Assembly (NCBI RefSeq): GCF_017347095.1
Contig: NZ_JADPRZ010000004.1
Location: 62,001 to 126,000, forward strand
DNA length: 64,000 nucleotides
Source of the DNA: Sporosarcina sp. E16_8
Lineage (GTDB): Bacteria; Bacillota; Bacilli; Bacillales_A; Planococcaceae
Reading direction: 5' to 3'
A model generated the notes under the pieces. It was given only the letters and a program-made list of their open reading frames with translations. It was not told where the DNA came from and ran no database searches. The translations under genes and the position numbers were made by a program. Shown piece by piece: positions 10,683-33,120 of the stretch. Numbering within the stretch: the first letter of the stretch is position 1; each line of letters opens with the position of its first letter.

Positions 10683-10854
10683 ACTCTTATCAAGAGCGGC
10701 GGAGGGAATAGGCCCTGCGATGCCCGGCAACCAGCGAGTGACAAACTTGCAAAGGTGCTACTTCCTACAGATTCGTGCGAACGGTCTGAAAGATAAGGGG
10801 AGGAATAAGCGAAAGCGTAACCCTCTTCTTAAGCGAAGGGGGTTATTTTTTATT
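10683..10854 (+). ncRNA. SAM-I (S-box) riboswitch with terminator
   Basis: The leader shows the classic S-box core: ACTCTTATCAAGAGCGG, then GGAGGGAATAGGCCCTG, then GATGCCCGGCAACC. It ends in an intrinsic terminator with arms AACCCTCTTC (10819-10828) and GAAGGGGGTT (10835-10844) followed by ATTTTTTATT. When S-adenosylmethionine binds, the terminator forms and the metY-metX-hom operon is switched off. The P1 stem, kink-turn region and conserved GGCAACC are all present. Confidence 0.95.
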
Positions 10855-21972: not shown

Positions 21973-22896
21973 GTGAGAAATTCAAGAAAAAGTAGTAGTT
22001 TGTTAAGTCTAATAAGTATATTTGTAGTTGCAATTATATTGTCGGCATGCGGAAGTAATGAGAAAAGCGTGAATGAATCGGATGATAAAAAGAATCAGCT
22101 TGGAGAGAAAAAGATTACGATACCTTACGTATCTTGGGCAACAGAAATTGGAAGTAATCATGTGATAAAAGAGGTACTTGAGAGTGTCGGCTATGACGTG
22201 ACTTTGAAAGAAGTTAATACAGGCGCGATGTATATTGCTGTAGCGGATGGGTCGGCTGATGCGATGATTTCAGCATGGCTTCCATATACAGACGTAAGTT
22301 ATTGGGAAAAGTTTGAGGATGAATTAGTAGATTTAGGTCCTAACCTAAAAGAAGCGCCGTTAGGCTTAGTTGTGCCTAGTTATGTAGAAATCGATTCCAT
22401 TGAAGAGATGAAAGAAAATGCTAATTCCGTTGGAGAAGCGACTGGTTGGACGATCACTGGGATTGATCCAGGCGCGGGCCAGATGCAAATTACTGAGGAA
22501 GCAATGAAGGAATATGGCTTAGATAACTGGACATTAAAAGCCACCAGTGACGCGATAATGATGGCTGCATTAGACAGGGCAATAAAGAAAAAAGAAGATA
22601 TTATCGTGACGCTCTGGTCTCCACACTGGGCATTTAAAGAATATGACTTGAAATATCTAAAAGATCCGAAAGGCGTATTTGGAGAGCCGGATGATATTCG
22701 TACACTTACCCGCAAAGGTCTAGAACAGGATTCGCCGGCAGCCTACCAAATTTTGAATCAATTCGAGTGGGACAAAGAGCATTTGGAAGCTGTAATGGTC
22801 AATATTTTTAATGGAACAGACCCTGAAAAAGCAGCTAAAGAATTTGTTGAGAATAATGAGGAACTAGTTAAGAAATGGACAAAAGGCGTGCAATAA
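21973..22896 (+). CDS. OpuAC-like glycine betaine/choline-binding lipoprotein
   Basis: This is a 307-residue lipoprotein with lipobox LSAC and the OpuAC/ProX-type fold (PF04069). Several tryptophan contexts that could hold a quaternary ammonium group are visible: PYVSWATEIGS, AWLPYTDVSYW and TLWSPHWAFKEY. The start is GTG at 21973, six bases after AGGGGG; the longer frame from 21922 overlaps gbsR. No ATPase or permease gene adjoins it. Co-transcription with gbsR suggests binding of choline or betaine, either for a transporter encoded elsewhere or for sensing. Confidence 0.83.
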   Translation: MRNSRKSSSLLSLISIFVVAIILSACGSNEKSVNESDDKKNQLGEKKITIPYVSWATEIGSNHVIKEVLESVGYDVTLKEVNTGAMYIAVADGSADAMISAWLPYTDVSYWEKFEDELVDLGPNLKEAPLGLVVPSYVEIDSIEEMKENANSVGEATGWTITGIDPGAGQMQITEEAMKEYGLDNWTLKATSDAIMMAALDRAIKKKEDIIVTLWSPHWAFKEYDLKYLKDPKGVFGEPDDIRTLTRKGLEQDSPAAYQILNQFEWDKEHLEAVMVNIFNGTDPEKAAKEFVENNEELVKKWTKGVQ

Positions 22897-22974
22897 AGTT
22901 ACTTATTATTACACATCTGTTGATTAAATATTTATTTGCATAAAATACTGGTAGGAAGGGCTTGATAACCTCCA

Positions 22975-23395
22975 TTTTTTACTGGACTATTTTTGGCCCG
23001 CTTACGGCTAACTATTCATGTCAGATGTACAGAGGGGTCCTAGTGTGGTTAGAAGTGACGGAGTCACTTCTAGCCACACTATTTTCAGTAATCCTGTTGC
23101 GAATAGTTGCCTGTCGCGAACCTACACTATTCAAGTGGAAAATGCAATTGTTTTGGAAGAAAAGAATAGATGACTTTCTATAGAGAGTGTAAGTGCCCGA
23201 AGATACAATTTCAGGCACTCTAGTACGTTGTACAATGTGTTCCTTGCTTACTTTTAGCAAAGATTATTCATGTAATCATGTGATGTATTATAGAAGTCAT
23301 TCAATCCAAAGCGATGCAATAGCGCAACTATACAAGTAGTGGGCAGGGGGTGATCAAGATACTCGCTGGATACTTTTGGTTAATCAACAGACGTG
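22975..23395 (+). repeat. Left arm of a 420-bp inverted repeat carrying a structured element (copy A)
   Basis: This non-coding block is repeated in inverse orientation at 27679-28346, once a 249-bp insert there is removed (421 versus about 419 bases). Its core runs from hairpin 1 to hairpin 2. Hairpin 1 (23043-23079) has 17-base arms and a GGA loop. Hairpin 2 (23193-23218) has 9-base arms and the loop GATACAAT. The 113-base spacer includes GTCGCG and GAAAAGAATAG. The arms differ between copies in a compensating way. No transposase is nearby. It could be a small RNA, a miniature transposon or both. Confidence 0.85.
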
Positions 23396-23460
23396 TTATT
23401 ATTAGACTGTACATACAAGGATGTTTTGTAGTGCTGTTCATTAATAGACGTTGACTAATA

Positions 23461-23502
23461 AAGACACACAATCCTTTAGCTAAAGGATTGTGTGTCTTTT
23501 GA
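23461..23502 (+). terminator. Perfect palindrome with T tail
   Basis: A 38-base perfect palindrome, with outer arms AAGACACACAATCCTTT and AAAGGATTGTGTGTCTT, runs into TT. It lies just past the left inverted-repeat arm and before the EamA gene. No gene directly upstream needs it, so it may end transcription of the repeat element. Confidence 0.65.
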
Positions 23503-23594
23503 GCATCCAGTAAGGTGGGGGGATATGTACGAGTTAAGGTGTTGGAACAATCTGTTTGTATGGTATCTTCTATATAGAGAAAGAGGGGATAACT

Positions 23595-24479
23595 GTGTCA
23601 CAGCGTATTTCATATTTATTCGTACTAGTAGGAGCGATACTTTGGGGAACGACCGGCACCGCACAGACGTTTATGCCACAAACAATCCACCCATTGGCAG
23701 TGGGGGCATCGAGGCTTGCTATAGGTGGTTTTTCATTACTAGTTATTTTGCTCATTATGCGTAAAATCGATTTTCGAAATTGGCCGTGGAAATCTACGCT
23801 GTACGCAGCTATATCAATGGCTATTTTTCAATATTTATTTTTTTCCTCTGTCAGATTGACGGGAGTTGCTATAGGCACGGTCGTCACAATCGGAAGTGCT
23901 CCCGTTTTTTCCGGAATCATTGAATGGTTATTATTGAAGCGCCGTCCGACCCGGGTGTGGATCATGGCGACAGCACTTGCAATTATAGGATGTGCACTGC
24001 TCTTTTTAAATAAAGATGGAATCGTTGTCAATCCAGTGGGAATCGCGATGTCACTTGGAGCTGGATTGTTGTTTGCCTTTTATACCCTCGTCAATAAAGA
24101 CGTACTAGACAAGGTGGATGCTGTGCCTGCTGTTGCGGTTATCTTTTCGATGAGTGCGATAATGCTTCTGCCATTTTTGTTTTTATTCGAAACGGAAGGG
24201 CTTATGACTGGGCGTGGAATATCTGTCGTGTTGTATCTTGGGATCGTTACAACCAGTGTGGCATATATCCTATTTTCTGCCGGATTGAAACGGATACCTT
24301 CATCGTCAGCCGTAACGCTGTCACTTGCTGAACCGCTGACTGCTGCTATATTGAGTGTAATTGTTGTAGGTGAGCGACTGAATGGAACGTCGTGGGCAGG
24401 TATTGCGATGTTGCTTGGTGGAATTCTTGTGTTGACGTTGAGTGGTAGGAAGATGAAGAAATCTAATTTACTTACTTAA
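23595..24479 (+). CDS. EamA/DMT superfamily transporter
   Basis: This is a 294-residue membrane protein with ten predicted helices arranged as two EamA repeats. The first repeat starts YLFVLVGAILWGTTGTAQTF; the second ends LTAAILSVIVVGERLNGTSWAGIAMLLGGIL, the usual end of an EamA domain. The substrate is unknown. The GTG start at 23595 is six bases after AAGAGGGG. A remnant of a close homologue lies at 17972. The gene sits inside the region bracketed by the 420-bp inverted repeat. Confidence 0.85.
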   Translation: MSQRISYLFVLVGAILWGTTGTAQTFMPQTIHPLAVGASRLAIGGFSLLVILLIMRKIDFRNWPWKSTLYAAISMAIFQYLFFSSVRLTGVAIGTVVTIGSAPVFSGIIEWLLLKRRPTRVWIMATALAIIGCALLFLNKDGIVVNPVGIAMSLGAGLLFAFYTLVNKDVLDKVDAVPAVAVIFSMSAIMLLPFLFLFETEGLMTGRGISVVLYLGIVTTSVAYILFSAGLKRIPSSSAVTLSLAEPLTAAILSVIVVGERLNGTSWAGIAMLLGGILVLTLSGRKMKKSNLLT

Positions 24480-24488
24480 TTGGCACTG

Positions 24489-24521
24489 GGCCTTCCTGTA
24501 ATTATAGGAAGGCCTATTTTT
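24489..24521 (+). terminator. Terminator after the EamA gene
   Basis: GGCCTTCCT and AGGAAGGCC form a 9-bp stem with an 8-nt loop, followed by TATTTTT. Confidence 0.85.
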
Positions 24522-24619
24522 GACTATCTTAAGACTTTCTTCATAATTACAGTTGGTAAATGTTAAGATTTGGCGGGTACAATTGGTATCATAGAGTTAA
24601 GAAAAGCGAGGTGCGGAAG

Positions 24620-25309
24620 ATGGCGAAGTTCACAGTGCTTGTAGCGGATGACGATCAGGATATCCGTGACGGGATTGAAATTTATTTGAAAAATGAAGGA
24701 TACGACGTACTAAAGGCCGCGGATGGCAAAGAGGCGCTGGAGTTATTGGAGGCGAACGACGTCCATCTTCTCATTCTCGACATTATGATGCCGAACATGG
24801 ATGGTATCACAGCAACATTCAAAATTAGGGAAGTGCGCAATATCCCGATTATCATGTTAAGTGCAAAAGCGGAGGACTCTGATAAAATTCACGGTTTGTC
24901 CGTTGGCGCTGATGATTATGTAACCAAACCGTTCCATCCAATGGAGTTGATGGCGCGGGTGAAGTCACAATTACGTCGCTATATTCAATTTGGTACGTAT
25001 GACGGTCAGAAAAAAATTGAAGTTGACGGTCTTGTTCTTGATGAAGAAGCAAAGGAAATAACAGTCGAGGGCGATGTTGTGAAGCTGACGCCCATTGAGT
25101 ACAAAATTACAGAATTGCTGATGAAAAATGCGGGGCGCGTGTTTTCCATCAATGAAATCTATGAACGCGTCTGGAACGAGGCGGCGTACAATGCTGAAAA
25201 TATTGTTGCTGTCCATATACGTAAAATTCGTGAAAAAATCGAAGCAGATCCAAAAAATCCGAGATATGTGAAGGTGGTGTGGGGCATTGGTTACAAAATC
25301 GAAAAATGA
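24620..25309 (+). CDS. OmpR/PhoB-family response regulator
   Basis: The receiver domain (residues 1-120) has the acidic pair DDDQD, the phosphorylatable aspartate in LLILDIMMPNMDG, and the lysine in DDYVTKPFHP. A winged-helix DNA-binding domain follows (about 130-229) and ends NPRYVKVVWGIGYKIEK. The ATG at 24620 fits the family start MAKFTVLVADDD; upstream codons in the frame are not coding. It is co-transcribed with a small membrane ORF, which overlaps its last codons, and then with the sensor kinase. The signal is unknown. Confidence 0.92.
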   Translation: MAKFTVLVADDDQDIRDGIEIYLKNEGYDVLKAADGKEALELLEANDVHLLILDIMMPNMDGITATFKIREVRNIPIIMLSAKAEDSDKIHGLSVGADDYVTKPFHPMELMARVKSQLRRYIQFGTYDGQKKIEVDGLVLDEEAKEITVEGDVVKLTPIEYKITELLMKNAGRVFSINEIYERVWNEAAYNAENIVAVHIRKIREKIEADPKNPRYVKVVWGIGYKIEK

Positions 25310-25463
25310 TTACGCTGCTTTTTGGTCAATCCTTGCAATTGTTATTGGGGCATTAAGTATTGGTTATTGTTTCTCCCACATCATCGATTTAGTTGGTAAT
25401 GGTGTGGAACGTTCTAGTCGGGCCATCGCCCAATTAAACAGGCTAATTAAAGGAGGCGTTTAA
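25287..25463 (+). CDS. Small membrane protein between response regulator and kinase
   Basis: This open frame of 58 codons starts at TTG 25287, behind AAGGTGGTGTGGGG. It overlaps the last 23 bases of the response regulator gene and stops two bases before the kinase ATG. The product has one hydrophobic helix (AAFWSILAIVIGALSIGYCF) and a polar tail, VERSSRAIAQLNRLIKGGV, that looks amphipathic. The kinase ribosome binding site lies within its last codons, as is typical of translational coupling. I do not recognise a family. It may modulate the kinase; this is inference from layout. Confidence 0.6.
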   Translation: MVTKSKNDYAAFWSILAIVIGALSIGYCFSHIIDLVGNGVERSSRAIAQLNRLIKGGV

Positions 25464-25465
25464 CG

Positions 25466-27658
25466 ATGAAGAGTAATAAATCGCCCCTACTATTATGGGT
25501 TTTACTAGTTTCGTTATTTTTAATAGCGCTTAATTCAACCGTGCAGGCTGATCTACAGAATATCGGGAAAAGTTATGTCAATTCGGAAGTTTTTAAAGCT
25601 AATATGGATACTTTTTATCAAAATATCGGTCCAACCACTTTGAATCCGATTAATATGGAAGAAGCAGAAAAAACGATTCCGGTAGCGAAGTCGGAAATTG
25701 AAGCACACCGCAACAGATTCGGAACCATGTCTGAGCAAATATCCAACATCCAAGACCAATATGTCGATCGGATTGCAGATGCAAAAGAGTCGAAAAATGA
25801 AGAGCTGAAAGCCGTATTAATTAAAGAGCGGGACACGAAACTGGATGATATTCGTCAAAATTTTGAAAGTGATGAACATGTAGAGGCAAAAATTAGGACT
25901 AAAAAAGCAGCTATGCTGAAAGGCTATTTGAATGAAAACCTTAGGTTAGAAATTGATGAGTTTCCAGTTTTTTACGAACTAGTAGATACCAAAACAGGGG
26001 AAAAGTTTTCATATGGCGATATGTTTTCCCACGCCGCCTATAAGAAGGTATTTGATGGGGGAAATGGTTATTTAAAAGCTTCGTCTATTCCTGTAGATAG
26101 GGATTTAACTTTTATGCGTGATGATGAAATCGAACTGACTAGGGATGACATGTTGTCAATCAGCAATCCGACACGAACATTCGAAGGCGAAGTCATCGTC
26201 TCGAAAGATGCATTGAAAGATGGGTTACTCAGTCACCAGATAAAGCAATATAACCAAGACAGATATTTTACGTTTGTTCTTTGGTTAGTTGGTGCAATTG
26301 CGTTGGCCGTAGTATTCACAAAGCTTCAGTTTAAAAAAGGGTGGGTTACGGAAAACGACTGGGCTATTAAATATAGCCACCTTAAAATTGATATGAAAGT
26401 AGGTTTGCTGGGTGTATCTACTATTGCAATGTATGCAGTATTAAATATCGTTTCAAACAGATTTCGTTATTTCTATTTTATAAACGTGAGTGCGTGGGTA
26501 ATGAACATAATTCAGTTCGGCTTTTTACTGTTGTTCTTATTGGCAGTTGTATTCCAGCTCGTTAATTTCATTGAACGGCTAAGACTTAAAGGAATGCTTG
26601 AAAAGGACATTGCGGACAGTTATACAGTGAGCTTCTTCAAGGCTTTTCATGATATGTTCTTGAAAAAGTCAATCGGTGTTCAAACGTTCATTTTACTTAT
26701 CGGCTTTTTCCTTGCCGGGATAGGGTTCGTAGTCGTATTTCTTATGCCAGTATCTTTAATACTCTACATCCCAGCCGTCCTGTTTCTGGGCTTGCCTGCA
26801 CTTTACATGTTAGTGAAGCGGTCAGCGTATTTAAACCGGATCATTGTTGCTACGGAGGCGATGGCAGCAGGACGTCTTCATGAAGAGATAAAGGTAGAAG
26901 GAAAATCACCACTTGCCGAACACGCAAATAATTTGAATAACTTGCGCGAAGGTGTTCATGTCTCAATGACTGAACAAGCGAAAAGTGAACGCTTAAAAAC
27001 AGAATTGATTACAAATGTCAGCCATGATCTTCGCACGCCATTGACATCAATTATTACGTATACGGATCTCCTGAAAAAGGAAGACATTACAGCTGAAGAA
27101 CGTACAAAGTATGTAGATATTTTAGACAAAAAATCACAGCGTTTGAAGACCTTAATCGAGGATTTATTCGAAGTATCGAAAATGGCGAGCGGTAACTTGG
27201 AACTAAACAAACAGCGCGTTGATATGACGCAATTACTACAGCAAGCCCTTGCGGAGCACGAGGAAGAAATCTCGAAATCAGGGCTGGACTTTAGGGTGAA
27301 TTTCCCTGAATCGGCACTCGTTGCCTATGTGGATGGAAAAAGATGGTGGCGTGTTTTAGATAACTTGATTGTCAATGCCATTAAGTACACATTGCCGGGT
27401 ACCCGCGTCTATATTACGCTTCGAAAAGTAGGTGATACAGCCGAATTCATCGTGAAAAATGTGACGAAGTATGAGCTCGGTGAAAATACCGACGAATTAT
27501 TTGAACGCTTTAAACGGGCGGATACATCACGCCATACAGATGGTTCAGGACTTGGCCTTGCAATTGCGCAATCCATCGTTGATTTGCATAATGGGAATAT
27601 GAAAATCGAAGTAGATGGGGATTTATTCAAAGTAACGGTCGTCGTGGCGGTGGTTTAA
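25466..27658 (+). CDS. Membrane sensor histidine kinase with large N-terminal sensing region
   Basis: This is a 730-residue kinase. A first helix (8-28) is followed by an extracellular region of about 235 residues with a coiled-coil-like stretch (about 75-140). Then come five or so membrane helices between 270 and 450, and a linker. The dimerisation domain has the phospho-histidine in NVSHDLRTPLTSII (about residue 520), and the ATP-binding domain has NLIVNAIKYT and DGSGLGLAIAQSIVDLHNG. It is paired with the regulator at 24620. The size and multi-helix core resemble VanS-like kinases of Bacillales with extra domains. The ligand is unknown. Confidence 0.9.
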   Translation: MKSNKSPLLLWVLLVSLFLIALNSTVQADLQNIGKSYVNSEVFKANMDTFYQNIGPTTLNPINMEEAEKTIPVAKSEIEAHRNRFGTMSEQISNIQDQYVDRIADAKESKNEELKAVLIKERDTKLDDIRQNFESDEHVEAKIRTKKAAMLKGYLNENLRLEIDEFPVFYELVDTKTGEKFSYGDMFSHAAYKKVFDGGNGYLKASSIPVDRDLTFMRDDEIELTRDDMLSISNPTRTFEGEVIVSKDALKDGLLSHQIKQYNQDRYFTFVLWLVGAIALAVVFTKLQFKKGWVTENDWAIKYSHLKIDMKVGLLGVSTIAMYAVLNIVSNRFRYFYFINVSAWVMNIIQFGFLLLFLLAVVFQLVNFIERLRLKGMLEKDIADSYTVSFFKAFHDMFLKKSIGVQTFILLIGFFLAGIGFVVVFLMPVSLILYIPAVLFLGLPALYMLVKRSAYLNRIIVATEAMAAGRLHEEIKVEGKSPLAEHANNLNNLREGVHVSMTEQAKSERLKTELITNVSHDLRTPLTSIITYTDLLKKEDITAEERTKYVDILDKKSQRLKTLIEDLFEVSKMASGNLELNKQRVDMTQLLQQALAEHEEEISKSGLDFRVNFPESALVAYVDGKRWWRVLDNLIVNAIKYTLPGTRVYITLRKVGDTAEFIVKNVTKYELGENTDELFERFKRADTSRHTDGSGLGLAIAQSIVDLHNGNMKIEVDGDLFKVTVVVAVV

Positions 27659-27678
27659 CAAATAGATATACAATAATA

Positions 27679-28346
27679 CATGTCTATTTATTAACCAAAC
27701 ATAACCAGCAAGTAACTTGATCACACATTGGTTCTACATGTATAGTTGCATTTTGATTGCTTTGGGATTGAACGACTACTATAGAATTACCCAGATGTCT
27801 GGATGTGTAGGGATGCGACTTTGTCGCATCCCTACACAGTTTTCCCGGTATTCCTATGGTGGTCCTTCATCCGTCGCGCTCCAAATGAATAAGTACAAAA
27901 GTGCTGAAACTTTTTGGGACGAAAGAATAGTGGGGTAACTACCCGGATAAAAGCCGCCAAAGATGCAATTTTGGCGGCTGATGCTTTCTCTATGGTTTTT
28001 TCTCTTTTATTAAAGAAGTGTCACTTTCTATAAGGTATCACACGATTATATGCATACTCTTTGCTAGAAGTAAGCAAGGAACGCATTGTACAACGTGCAA
28101 GAGTGCCCGAAATTGCATCTTCGGGCACTTACACTCTCTATAGAAAGTCATCTACTCTTTTCTTTCCAAACAACTGCACTTTTCACTTGAATAGTGTAGG
28201 AACGCGACAGGCAACTATTTACAACAGGATGACTTAAAAAAGTGTGTCTAGAAGTGATTGAGTCGCTTCTAGACACACTAGGACCCCCTCAGTAAATCTG
28301 TCATGAATAGTTAGCCGTAAGCGTGCCGGAAATAGTCCAGTGAAAA
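27679..28346 (-). repeat. Right arm of the 420-bp inverted repeat (copy B), interrupted by copy C
   Basis: The outer part, 27679-27783, matches the minus strand of 23290-23395. The inner part, 28023-28346, matches the minus strand of 22975-23297. Copy B hairpins are at 28103-28128 (perfect 9-bp stem, loop GATGCAAT in the element orientation) and 28242-28278 (17-base arms). The two are again 113 bases apart. Copy C lies between the two parts. No gene is found from 27659 to 28442; a 73-codon frame here reads through hairpin C and is not credible. Confidence 0.85.
27784..28032 (+). mobile_element. Structured element copy C, apparently inserted in the right repeat arm
   Basis: Hairpin 1 (27805-27837) has perfect 15-base arms starting GTGTAGGG with a TTT loop. 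Hairpin 2 (27952-27979) has perfect 10-base arms with the loop GATGCAAT. The distance between hairpins is 114 bases. The spacer shares GTCGCG, AAAAGTGC and GAAAGAATAG with copies A and B. The element interrupts the inverted-repeat arm between ACTACTATA (27775-27783) and ACTTTCTATA (28023-28032). These may be an imperfect target duplication. No protein is encoded, so mobility would need a helper. Confidence 0.65.
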
Positions 28347-28350
28347 TAAT

Positions 28351-28403
28351 AAGCTGTACGCAACGCCCTTATACGGAGGGGGATGCGTACAGCTTTATTT
28401 TTT
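28351..28403 (+). terminator. Strong terminator at the edge of the repeat arm
   Basis: AAGCTGTACGCA (28351-28362) and TGCGTACAGCTT (28384-28395) form a perfect 12-bp stem with a structured 21-nt loop, followed by TATTTTTTT. It begins directly where homology to the left repeat arm ends. Confidence 0.85.
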
Positions 28404-28442
28404 TAGAATATGGATACTAAGCTTGTTTTTCTGCAGTCTTAT

Positions 28443-29087
28443 TCAATAGAAGTACATGATATAAACACCGATGAGTAGTACGCCAATATCCGCACACATA
28501 TGAATCGTCCAAGAGGGCAAAATTGTTCCGCTTTTTTCATTGGCAAGTTGAAAGATAACTCCGCCGACCCAGAGCCCTGTCACAGCGAGTATAAGAAGAG
28601 CTGGGTTGAACCACGGAAGAAAAATCGTGATATGATAAATGGCAAACAGGAATGATGGTAAAATAAACCGAATAAGGGACTTGCCAACAAGGTTTGGCAA
28701 CAGACCGCGGAAGTAAAATTCCTCTAACATCGAATTGCCGAATAGTATATAGAGGGCGATGAACGGGAATGTAGTTGTCGTTATACCTGCGCTAGCAAGG
28801 TCAGCTAGAAGTGCAGCAATGTCTATGAAGGGCTGTAAGAAGATGAACGCGACAATGATAAACCCCATGATTGCAACCCCAGAACCAATCGCGGTCATCA
28901 TGCTTTTTCGATCAGTTTGGCGCAAACGTAAGAATGGGAATCCCACCTTGCGGAATAAAATGAGTGGGAGGATTAGGAAAAGAATCATTTTCGCCATTGT
29001 CTTCCATATGTACGCAACTTCTACTGATTGATCAATCCACAGTAAAAAAGCGATGCTCAATAACGATAAAACAATTCCCCGTATCAT
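28443..29087 (-). CDS. CPBP family intramembrane protease
   Basis: This is a 214-residue membrane protein with about seven helices. It carries the CPBP/Abi motif 1 as MLEEFYFRGLLPN (EExxxR), motif 2 around FAIYHITIFLPW (histidine) and a later histidine in WTIHMCADIG. Such proteins are Rce1-like proteases, and some act in bacteriocin immunity or processing. The start ATG lies seven bases after GGAGG; an upstream extension of 34 codons lacks a start signal. No bacteriocin gene adjoins it, so its role here is open. Confidence 0.83.
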   Translation of the reverse strand: MIRGIVLSLLSIAFLLWIDQSVEVAYIWKTMAKMILFLILPLILFRKVGFPFLRLRQTDRKSMMTAIGSGVAIMGFIIVAFIFLQPFIDIAALLADLASAGITTTTFPFIALYILFGNSMLEEFYFRGLLPNLVGKSLIRFILPSFLFAIYHITIFLPWFNPALLILAVTGLWVGGVIFQLANEKSGTILPSWTIHMCADIGVLLIGVYIMYFY

Positions 29088-32997: not shown

Positions 32998-33120
32998 CTT
33001 GTTATTCCTCCTTCTTGAGGTCAGATTATCTGTCAGTAAGGATAGTATGGAAGCAGGTACGCAACCTAAGTAAGCCGCGTTCTGCGGCGATGATTGCATA
33101 CCTGCATCCTACAGTCTATT

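Follow-up and report, generated by a model that had tools for sequence, protein, structure and literature searches.

REPs contain hairpins, and Bacillus subtilis carries a 190-bp repeat that lies symmetrically about the origin, a repeat that we did not find in the open-access literature searched and on which no conclusion here depends. Type II bacterial MITEs, as set out in the accessible part of PMC10969869, carry terminal inverted repeats (TIRs) common to insertion sequences (IS) of the genus, are flanked by target duplications of equal length, contain no genes, reach many copies, produce deletion derivatives and measure 50–500 bp. According to the accessible text of PMC5371812, the orientation of IS200/IS605 elements follows replication. 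The bcr1–bcr18 repeats of Bacillus cereus are described in the available sections of PMC6542083 as dispersed, mobile-like repeats of 100–400 bp, with up to 130 copies of bcr1 and with mobility tied to TTTAT motifs.

The element analysed here shares with type II MITEs its IS-type TIRs, equal-length duplications, lack of genes, many copies and deletion derivatives. It differs in its length, which at ~735 bp exceeds the range given in that part of PMC10969869, and in its interior, an inverted pair of modules of a kind that occurs without these ends in other genera. By description the module resembles the bcr repeats, as a dispersed, mobile-like repeat of Bacillales with a similar size and copy number, whereas TTTAT-linked mobility belongs to bcr and the available sections of PMC6542083 contain no statement on fork orientation that we saw. 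As an explanation of the whole, an IS4-ended MITE with an older module as its passenger, the same module standing as a fork-oriented solo repeat in the Psychrobacillus genome studied, is probably correct.

Two decayed elements with IS4-family ends

An earlier note on the window, the whole 64,000-nucleotide stretch of Sporosarcina sp. E16_8 DNA that was analysed, described three copies (A, B and C) of a structured element. A covariance model of the module, run over the whole window, finds all three where they had been placed, with strong matches of 148–157 bits each: A at 23047–23218 on the plus strand, C at 27807–27978 on the plus strand (156.9 bits, E 2.5e-46) and B at 28103–28274 on the minus strand (148.4 bits, E 9.3e-44). 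Five further matches (E up to 0.1) score 18–40 bits and are taken for echoes of the palindromic hairpins. The three structures are all real, but they are neither independent nor equivalent. The window holds two decayed copies of one IS4-ended MITE-like element: B and C are the inverted halves of a single element (27679 to about 28347), while A belongs to the same type of element but has an internal deletion that removed its second half. The full-length element ends in an 18-bp inverted repeat (CACGTCTGTTGATTAACC), and its interior consists of two head-to-head copies of the module, each made up of hairpin 1, a spacer and hairpin 2 with the loop GATRCAAT. There are 26 copies of 700–760 bp.

Element A (22912–23395, plus strand, 484 bp) keeps module 1, which directly adjoins the right tail, where other copies have module 2 between. 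Its left TIR (CACATCTGTTGATTAAAT, 22912–22929, plus strand) shows 3 mismatches to the consensus, while its right TIR (23378–23395) is the exact consensus on the minus strand. The target-site duplication TTATTATTA is identical at 9/9 positions on the left (22903–22911) and right (23396–23404) of the element. Hairpin 1 of A (23041–23081, plus strand) has 19 pairs and, like that of C, a loop of 3 nt; with the TTTT that follows it is terminator-like for transcription coming from the left. Hairpin 2 of A (23192–23219, plus strand; loop GATACAAT) contains one mismatched pair. Copy A resembles 39 other scored places in its own genome and has no match in plasmid and phage collections.

Element B+C (27679–28347, minus strand) comprises B as module 1 and C as the inverted module 2, and matches positions 63–741 of the full element. 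Its module-1 end is missing (about 60 bp, including the TIR), and the remaining TIR (CATGTCTATTTATTAACC, 27679–27696, plus strand) carries 3 mismatches; of the two elements only A thus retains both flanks for a comparison of target duplications. On the plus strand, hairpin 1 of C (27804–27838) has the tip GCGAC-TTT-GTCGC and hairpin 2 of C (27952–27979) the loop GATGCAAT; on the minus strand lie hairpin 1 of B (28241–28279) and hairpin 2 of B (28102–28129), again with the loop GATGCAAT. No open reading frame of 80 aa or more overlaps A or B+C, and there is thus no transposase gene inside either.

Searched at up to 3 mismatches in the element's own genome, the 18-bp TIR has 47 + 43 matches and the reversed pattern 0 + 2. 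Duplications of 9 bp were assessed on 59 hand-picked bounded elements: 54 of MITE type, taken for their two recognisable ends from 145 rows of which many repeat one element, and five of IS type. The flanks match at 7/9 positions or more in 44/59 of these, including 21 at 9/9, and at fewer than 7/9 in 15/59; controls gave 0.8% for mismatched flanks and 0–4/59 for other offsets. One Psychrobacillus locus lacks the copy that is present at the orthologous locus of another genome.

Insertion sequences of the genus carry almost identical ends. The IS at G000:C25 encodes a 375-aa IS4-family DDE transposase and is flanked by the target duplication CCTTGATAG; the only IS of this type found in G000 (L081) differs from the MITE ends at 2–3/18 positions. 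Three 1301-bp relatives in G005 (L113–L115) match the 18-bp right end exactly and the left end with 2–3 mismatches, and two of the three have 9/9 duplications. The near-identical ends and 9-bp duplications of these IS copies ally the element with IS4-family insertion sequences (NF033592), from which it differs in having no transposase and, by eye, no likeness past the ends. An IS4-family transposase would accordingly be expected to move the element in trans, duplicating 9 bp of target, and the head-to-head pair of an older structured module would be a passenger captured by the IS4 ends. Of the two possibilities that the earlier note had offered, an RNA or a transposon substrate, the TIRs, duplications and IS4-family ends bear out the second. 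The same note had counted a match to a known MITE against its own reading; in kind the element is just that, MITE-like with IS4-family ends, and no published description or name for it was found in the open-access literature searched.

Conservation and covariation of the module

The module is present in at least 43/261 genomes of the family, all but one of them Sporosarcina, Paenisporosarcina or Psychrobacillus, at tens to over a hundred copies per genome; these counts are lower bounds, and at permissive E-values they include antisense echoes of the palindromic hairpins. It is part of a broader group of hairpin repeats dispersed through the three genera. A class scan outside the family gave weak matches (E 2.5e-6 to 2.5e-5) in 4/398 genomes, which were treated as chance. 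No Rfam family reaches its gathering score over the element, in keeping with the earlier statement that no named family could be recognised, and a permissive Rfam scan of three module loci returns only five sub-threshold matches, four of them to microRNA families. The near-constant hairpin spacing noted in the window extends to a wider set: hairpin 1 and the hairpin-2 loop lie 119–123 apart in 59 of the 77 instances, among 123 examined, with a well-scored hairpin 1.

The structure lies well outside what chance would give: measured against 20 dinucleotide shuffles per strand, the folds of one full copy have z = −16.4 and −11.9. RNAalifold finds a weak consensus (−93 kcal/mol) for 26 full-length copies. 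In a cross-genus alignment of 37 diverse modules (A1; 39 representatives from 135 instances, 2 dropped for length), whose members were first picked partly for paired stems, 97.5% of cells pair, against 74.3% when shuffled and 35–47% when slid. Compensated, two-sided changes occur in 16/21 base pairs across the three genera. Under a tree-aware null, calculated with our own script of R-scape type rather than with R-scape itself, 7/21 pairs are significant at E<0.05, 14/21 are not, and none of the other pairs tested is. The hairpins are thus conserved by structure more than by sequence, as had been proposed. When 26 copies are selected by their ends and length alone, two-sided changes appear in 8/16 and 7/15 pairs of hairpin 1; hairpin 2 is nearly invariant within the Sporosarcina MITE, so that the evidence for its covariation comes from the cross-genus alignment. 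In Paenisporosarcina hairpin 2 can be translated as AAEDAISAA, but a coding origin was rejected for the in-frame stops seen by eye in several copies.

Compensating change is not in itself proof of selection on RNA. Template switching or cruciform repair could copy one hairpin arm onto the other and keep palindromes perfect with no selection on the fold, which would make the covariation neutral. The hairpin-1 tips bear on this, as they are seen in both orientations: 100 GTGAC tips include TCC 27/GGA 7, TGC 21/GCA 1 and GTT 16/AAC 1, and 39 GCGAC tips include TTT 28/AAA 3 and GAA 2/TTC 2. Tip inversion is likely a mark of DNA-level arm exchange, and since the tips occur in reverse-complement pairs, arm copying at the DNA level could yield part of the covariation. 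Against a neutral origin, tips other than GGA that differ from TCC at all three positions are common too (GTT 16, tentatively attributed to another genus) and TTT occurs 5 times in GTGAC tips without any AAA. Moreover, arm copying leaves unexplained why the letters of the stems turn over between genera when the hairpin-2 loop, a GAAAGAATAG-like block and the distance between the hairpins remain constant. We regard it as possible, though somewhat unlikely, that the covariation is neutral.

Solo modules and replication-fork orientation

In Psychrobacillus G211 most modules stand alone, at an estimated roughly 120 copies, and the left end of the solo module is sharp and frequently comes after a stop codon. 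These copies have a preferred orientation relative to the replication fork (dnaA lies at base 22). Among the matches listed (75 of 150), 68/75 copies oppose the fork (p 7e-5). A subset of 38, every second listed row by position, gives 33/38 with the terminus set at 2.25 Mb (p 0.026; 32 or 33/38 with other choices of terminus), or 32/35 once three copies resembling IS4-ended ones are removed (p 0.005), and an unbiased 400-kb sample gives 11/11 (p 0.027). The reference for all of these p values is the 72% share of ORF bases oriented with the fork, a figure for open frames of 90 codons or more in which gene directions come from the frames and not from annotation. Of the 38 copies, two lie between a pair of IS4-type ends, a third carries one and 28 have none within 700 bp; 7 more have a single IS4-type end, as do 13/76 control windows.

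In three more genomes, 10/12 mapped copies, read by hand, agree with the fork-opposed orientation, and in Paenisporosarcina G154 19/29 copies among the matches listed oppose the fork, a weak bias. An orientation that follows replication, as in IS200/IS605-type elements, is thus found in G211 and weakly in G154. Clustering of G154 modules at 2.51–2.75 Mb had suggested an integron-like cassette array, a reading that was rejected because they sit between apparently ordinary chromosomal genes in a mixture of single, tandem and inverted arrangements.

Orientation also bears on whether the host keeps the hairpins as terminators that work in both directions; in each half of the MITE a T-run lies on the inner side of hairpin 1. 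Over 139 instances the 8 nt that follow hairpin 1 contain 4.8 T on average, hairpin 1 of A was scanned as terminator-like in a region with 8 terminator-like sites against 3.9 in shuffles, and 17/38 of the G211 copies lie in convergent gaps compared with 1/38 in divergent gaps. Terminators kept by the host should follow gene direction, however, yet the 33/38 oppose the fork while most ORF bases run with it, and in gaps whose flanking genes leave the orientation unexplained 18/21 still do so. We consider this role improbable.

A functional non-coding RNA or paired RNA gene, with the RNA fold under selection and the transposon ends incidental, appears still more doubtful. The constant loops and spacer motifs, the compensated stem changes across three genera and the very stable folds speak for it. 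It fits poorly with the head-to-head arrangement in the MITE, hence with no single transcript holding both modules in sense, with tens to over a hundred copies per genome, with promoter-like sites in 22800–28500 that are no more frequent than in shuffles (14 vs 15.0), with the varied gene directions flanking the 38 G211 copies, and with tip inversions that point to a DNA-level process.

It is very unlikely that a RAYT (Y1) transposase has spread the solo modules in the manner of REPs. In favour of this, one or two Y1 genes of about 190–220 aa occur in each of the four Psychrobacillus genomes searched with the Y1 family, the Y1 protein is matched in 18/19 genomes of that genus and IS200/IS605 elements have such an orientation bias (accessible text of PMC5371812). 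Against it, matches to the protein extend to 128/261 genomes of the family and 13 genera, most of them lacking modules; the Y1 gene is preceded by hairpins unlike those of the module; and a search around 11 Y1 loci with the module model gave no convincing match (best E 0.11). The absence of Y1 from the module-rich G000, G030, G065 and G013, with the lack of linkage, rules it out as a necessary partner. The module shares hairpins with REP/REPIN-RAYT systems and replication-following orientation with IS200/IS605 as described there, and differs from both in having no linked Y1 partner that we could find, a length of roughly 300 nt, variable stems and constant loops.

Returning to the fork-oriented solo repeat, the module would have inserted in one fork-relative orientation in the Psychrobacillus genome studied, and the likeliest route is an insertion process linked to the single-stranded DNA of the fork; the search for a partner enzyme of the solo module found none. 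We tentatively propose that it is an undescribed non-autonomous element of Planococcaceae with a single-stranded intermediate at the fork, its left end fixed at stop codons and its right ends ragged, recognised by hairpin shape and loop rather than by stem sequence, and that IS4 ends subsequently took up two modules in head-to-head arrangement. In a bolder version of this proposal, a retro-copied RNA would account for the right-end truncation, the fixed left end corresponding to its 3' end, and the element would be SINE-like.

Meaning of a module found both between IS4-type ends and alone

One structured repeat can occur alone, oriented relative to the fork, and also travel as passenger in a transposon that moves differently. 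Where hairpins are mobile, strong covariation is no proof of a functional RNA, since the same hairpins show tip inversion. The solo module provides a dense natural record of insertion direction, with an estimated 120 copies in one chromosome that nearly all oppose the fork, and this makes fork-coupled insertion in Gram-positive bacteria directly testable.

Two MITE copies in the window

A covariance model built from 37 diverse instances of the module (hairpin 1, spacer and hairpin 2 with loop GATRCAAT) recovers all three structures that an earlier note had described, where it had placed them: A at 23047–23218 and C at 27807–27978 on the plus strand, and B at 28274–28103 on the minus strand, all scoring 148–157 bits, with the next-best match in the window at 40 bits. 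No Rfam family matched at these hairpin sites. Elsewhere in the window a SAM riboswitch (10684–10799, plus strand), a PreQ1 riboswitch (16637–16591, minus strand) and a Bacillaceae-1 RNA (33050–33115, plus strand) scored at or above the Rfam gathering score.

The structures had been counted as three copies, a count that does not survive alignment. With A as query, the genome of origin yielded 89 matching pieces, scores being obtained for 40 of 76 initial candidates; a right-hand tail recurs there approximately 250–300 bp further out than in A. The alignment of 30 loci revealed a full copy of ~735 bp, arranged as inverted repeat, module 1, inverted module 2 and inverted repeat. Element A (22912–23395) has lost module 2, which accounts for the displaced tail, and a single minus-strand element (27679–28347) supplies both B, its module 1, and C, its module 2. 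The two copies lie less than 6 kb apart.

Allowing up to three mismatches, this genome contains the 18-bp end CACGTCTGTTGATTAACC 47 times forward and 43 times reverse, as against 0 and 2 for a reversed control pattern. Among 59 hand-picked elements with both ends recognisable, the flanking 9-mers match at seven or more positions in 44, at eight or more in 37 and at all nine in 21; seven matching positions are reached by 0.8% of mismatched-flank controls, and other offsets gave 0–4 of the 59. Element A carries TTATTATTA on both flanks, while the B and C element lacks its module-1 end, leaving no flank pair to compare. The genome also contains seven short TIR-bounded derivatives of 292–619 bp (loci L082, L083, L084, L085, L086, L123 and L127), six of which have flanks matching at seven or more of nine positions. 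Two Psychrobacillus genomes differ at an orthologous locus, with a copy in one and none in the other.

The genome of the window also has a 1258-bp element, nearly identical at its ends and flanked by a 9/9 duplication, that encodes a 375-residue DDE transposase matching the IS4 family (NF033592, E = 2.7e-59) and Pfam DDE_Tnp_1. Another Sporosarcina genome holds three 1301-bp relatives whose right end is the exact 18 bp of the MITE and whose left end is 2–3 mismatches off, with 9/9 duplications in two of the three. The window element is thus MITE-like with IS4-family ends, and we infer that it is mobilised in trans by an IS4-family transposase. Its hairpins are most likely passengers drawn from the module family. 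No published description of the element was found among the matches listed in the open-access literature.

Covariation and hairpin-1 tips

Compensating change had been taken to indicate selection on structure, and the compensated changes themselves are borne out. The two hairpins comprise 21 pairs in an alignment of 37 sequences and 189 columns, and 16 of these changed on both sides. Paired cells reach 97.5%, a figure inflated by instances having been found partly by their paired stems, compared with 74.3% when shuffled and 35–47% with partners slid. Against a tree-aware null of our own (60 simulated alignments), significance at E < 0.05 was reached by 7 of the 21 hairpin pairs and by no other pair among those tested. 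In a check set free of stem selection (26 full-length copies chosen by ends and length only), the two hairpin-1 stems of each MITE showed two-sided changes in 8/16 and 7/15 pairs. The corresponding values for hairpin 2 were 1/10 and 0/10; it hardly varies in the MITE and is therefore uninformative there, for or against. Folding of one full copy gave z-scores of −16.4 and −11.9 on the two strands.

What does not stand is covariation as proof of selection. The 3-base tips of hairpin 1 occur in both orientations: among GTGAC tips (n = 100), TCC 27 and GGA 7, TGC 21 and GCA 1, GTT 16 and AAC 1; among GCGAC tips (n = 39), TTT 28 and AAA 3, GAA 2 and TTC 2. The control within these counts is not clean, in that GTT is as distant from TCC as GGA is, yet commoner, which we would attribute, as a supposition, to another genus. 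Reverse-complement tips would be more simply accounted for if the tip had been inverted, through template switching or processing of a cruciform, than by three substitutions. Such a mechanism can also transfer a change between hairpin arms and, because such copying could produce changes on both sides, covariation is no proof of selection on the fold. Selection on the module fold is nevertheless likely, and the stronger argument for it is the constancy of loop, spacer block and spacing.

Distribution of element and module

The element was found in 7 of 61 genomes (its own included) and in 33 of 261 genomes of the Planococcaceae. The range of the module is wider: the covariance model places it in 43 of the 261, own genome included, comprising 15 Sporosarcina (two weak), 8 Paenisporosarcina, 19 Psychrobacillus and one weak case in a further genus, g42. 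When 398 genomes sampled across the class were scanned, strong matches were confined to the family, and four genomes beyond it gave matches at E = 2.5e-6 or weaker. In Psychrobacillus the core of the element matches and the sub-terminal parts do not, and several copies have IS4-type ends (L174, L175 and L177). No such ends were seen at the Paenisporosarcina loci checked (L186–L192 and L194–L200); in genome G154 of that genus the modules sit among apparently ordinary genes, singly, in tandem or inverted. At one G154 locus (L188, 3–282 and 691–969), two inverted modules, 78% complementary, surround a 400-bp stretch that seems, on reading, to code for a small cysteine-rich protein. Five further module loci (L261, L276, L277, L283 and L319) lie in records titled Arthrobacter beigongshangensis REN13 and have 38–43% G+C, which is low for Arthrobacter; that assembly is probably mislabelled or mixed.

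Solo modules and the replication fork

Psychrobacillus genome G211, with a main contig of 4.33 Mb and dnaA at base 22, abounds in modules standing alone, outside MITE ends; it has at least 150 model matches (all 150 scored candidates). Eleven copies fell within twenty 20-kb stretches sampled without bias, which extrapolates to ~120 per genome. Of the 75 matches listed, 68 are oriented against the fork when the terminus is set at half. So are the modules in 33 of 38 neighbourhoods (every second one of those 75) and 11/11 of the unbiased sample (p = 0.027 against the 72% of ORF bases that run with the fork). The 38 copies include 17 in convergent gaps and 1 in a divergent gap. Where gene direction cannot account for copy orientation, 18/21 are fork-opposed (convergent 14/17, tandem genes against the fork 4/4; binomial p = 0.0007). 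Leaving out three copies with an IS4-ended look (L416, L423 and L424) gives 32/35 overall (p = 0.005 against 72%) and 17/19 in the informative gaps (p = 0.0004). Read by hand against dnaA, the matches listed for three other Psychrobacillus genomes are fork-opposed in 4/4 (G221), 4/5 (G224) and 2/3 (G217) cases; the bias is weaker in Paenisporosarcina G154, at 19/29 among the matches listed.

The left end of the G211 solo module is sharp (TAAGAAAA...), and a stop codon falls at −15 to +19 of this boundary in 17 of 23 cases with a same-strand open frame of at least 90 codons whose end is 150 nt or less away. Right ends are ragged, and tails are shared between copies; at L429 the right-hand tail includes, ~200 bp from the module, an IS4-type inverted-repeat core, as if two element types nest or abut. 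By automatic classes, 12 of 73 copies have the left end intact and the right cut (4/11 in the unbiased sample and 8/62 in the neighbourhoods, one of these eight truncated by the limit of the retrieved sequence), 10 the reverse and 3 both ends cut. Reading of the rows assigns most of the ten to a diverged two-module type or a slightly late start, leaving one or two solo-type copies as genuine left cuts. Should this assignment be right, such polarity would be consistent with single-strand insertion from one end, or with a retro-copied RNA having its 3′ terminus at the left boundary; plain decay of a less constrained end may also account for it.

On this analysis, insertion of the solo module most likely took place into DNA that was single-stranded, close to forks. 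PMC5371812 describes orientation tracking replication for IS200/IS605, a feature shared with the solo module, and similar biases for other IS families with clamp-binding transposases; since several families show them, fork bias by itself cannot name the enzyme. A RAYT (Y1 transposase family) candidate for mover of the solo module failed. Psychrobacillus RAYT-like Y1 genes occur at L390, L391, L392 and L394, with the same two neighbour genes at L390 and L392 and a different hairpin (TTACTGGTGCCAGGCACCAGTAA or a close variant) upstream at L391, L392 and L394.

The MITE is a further member of an already known kind of element. The module, in which loops stay constant and stem sequences turn over, is a novel variation, present as solo copies that oppose the fork and again inside an IS4-ended element.
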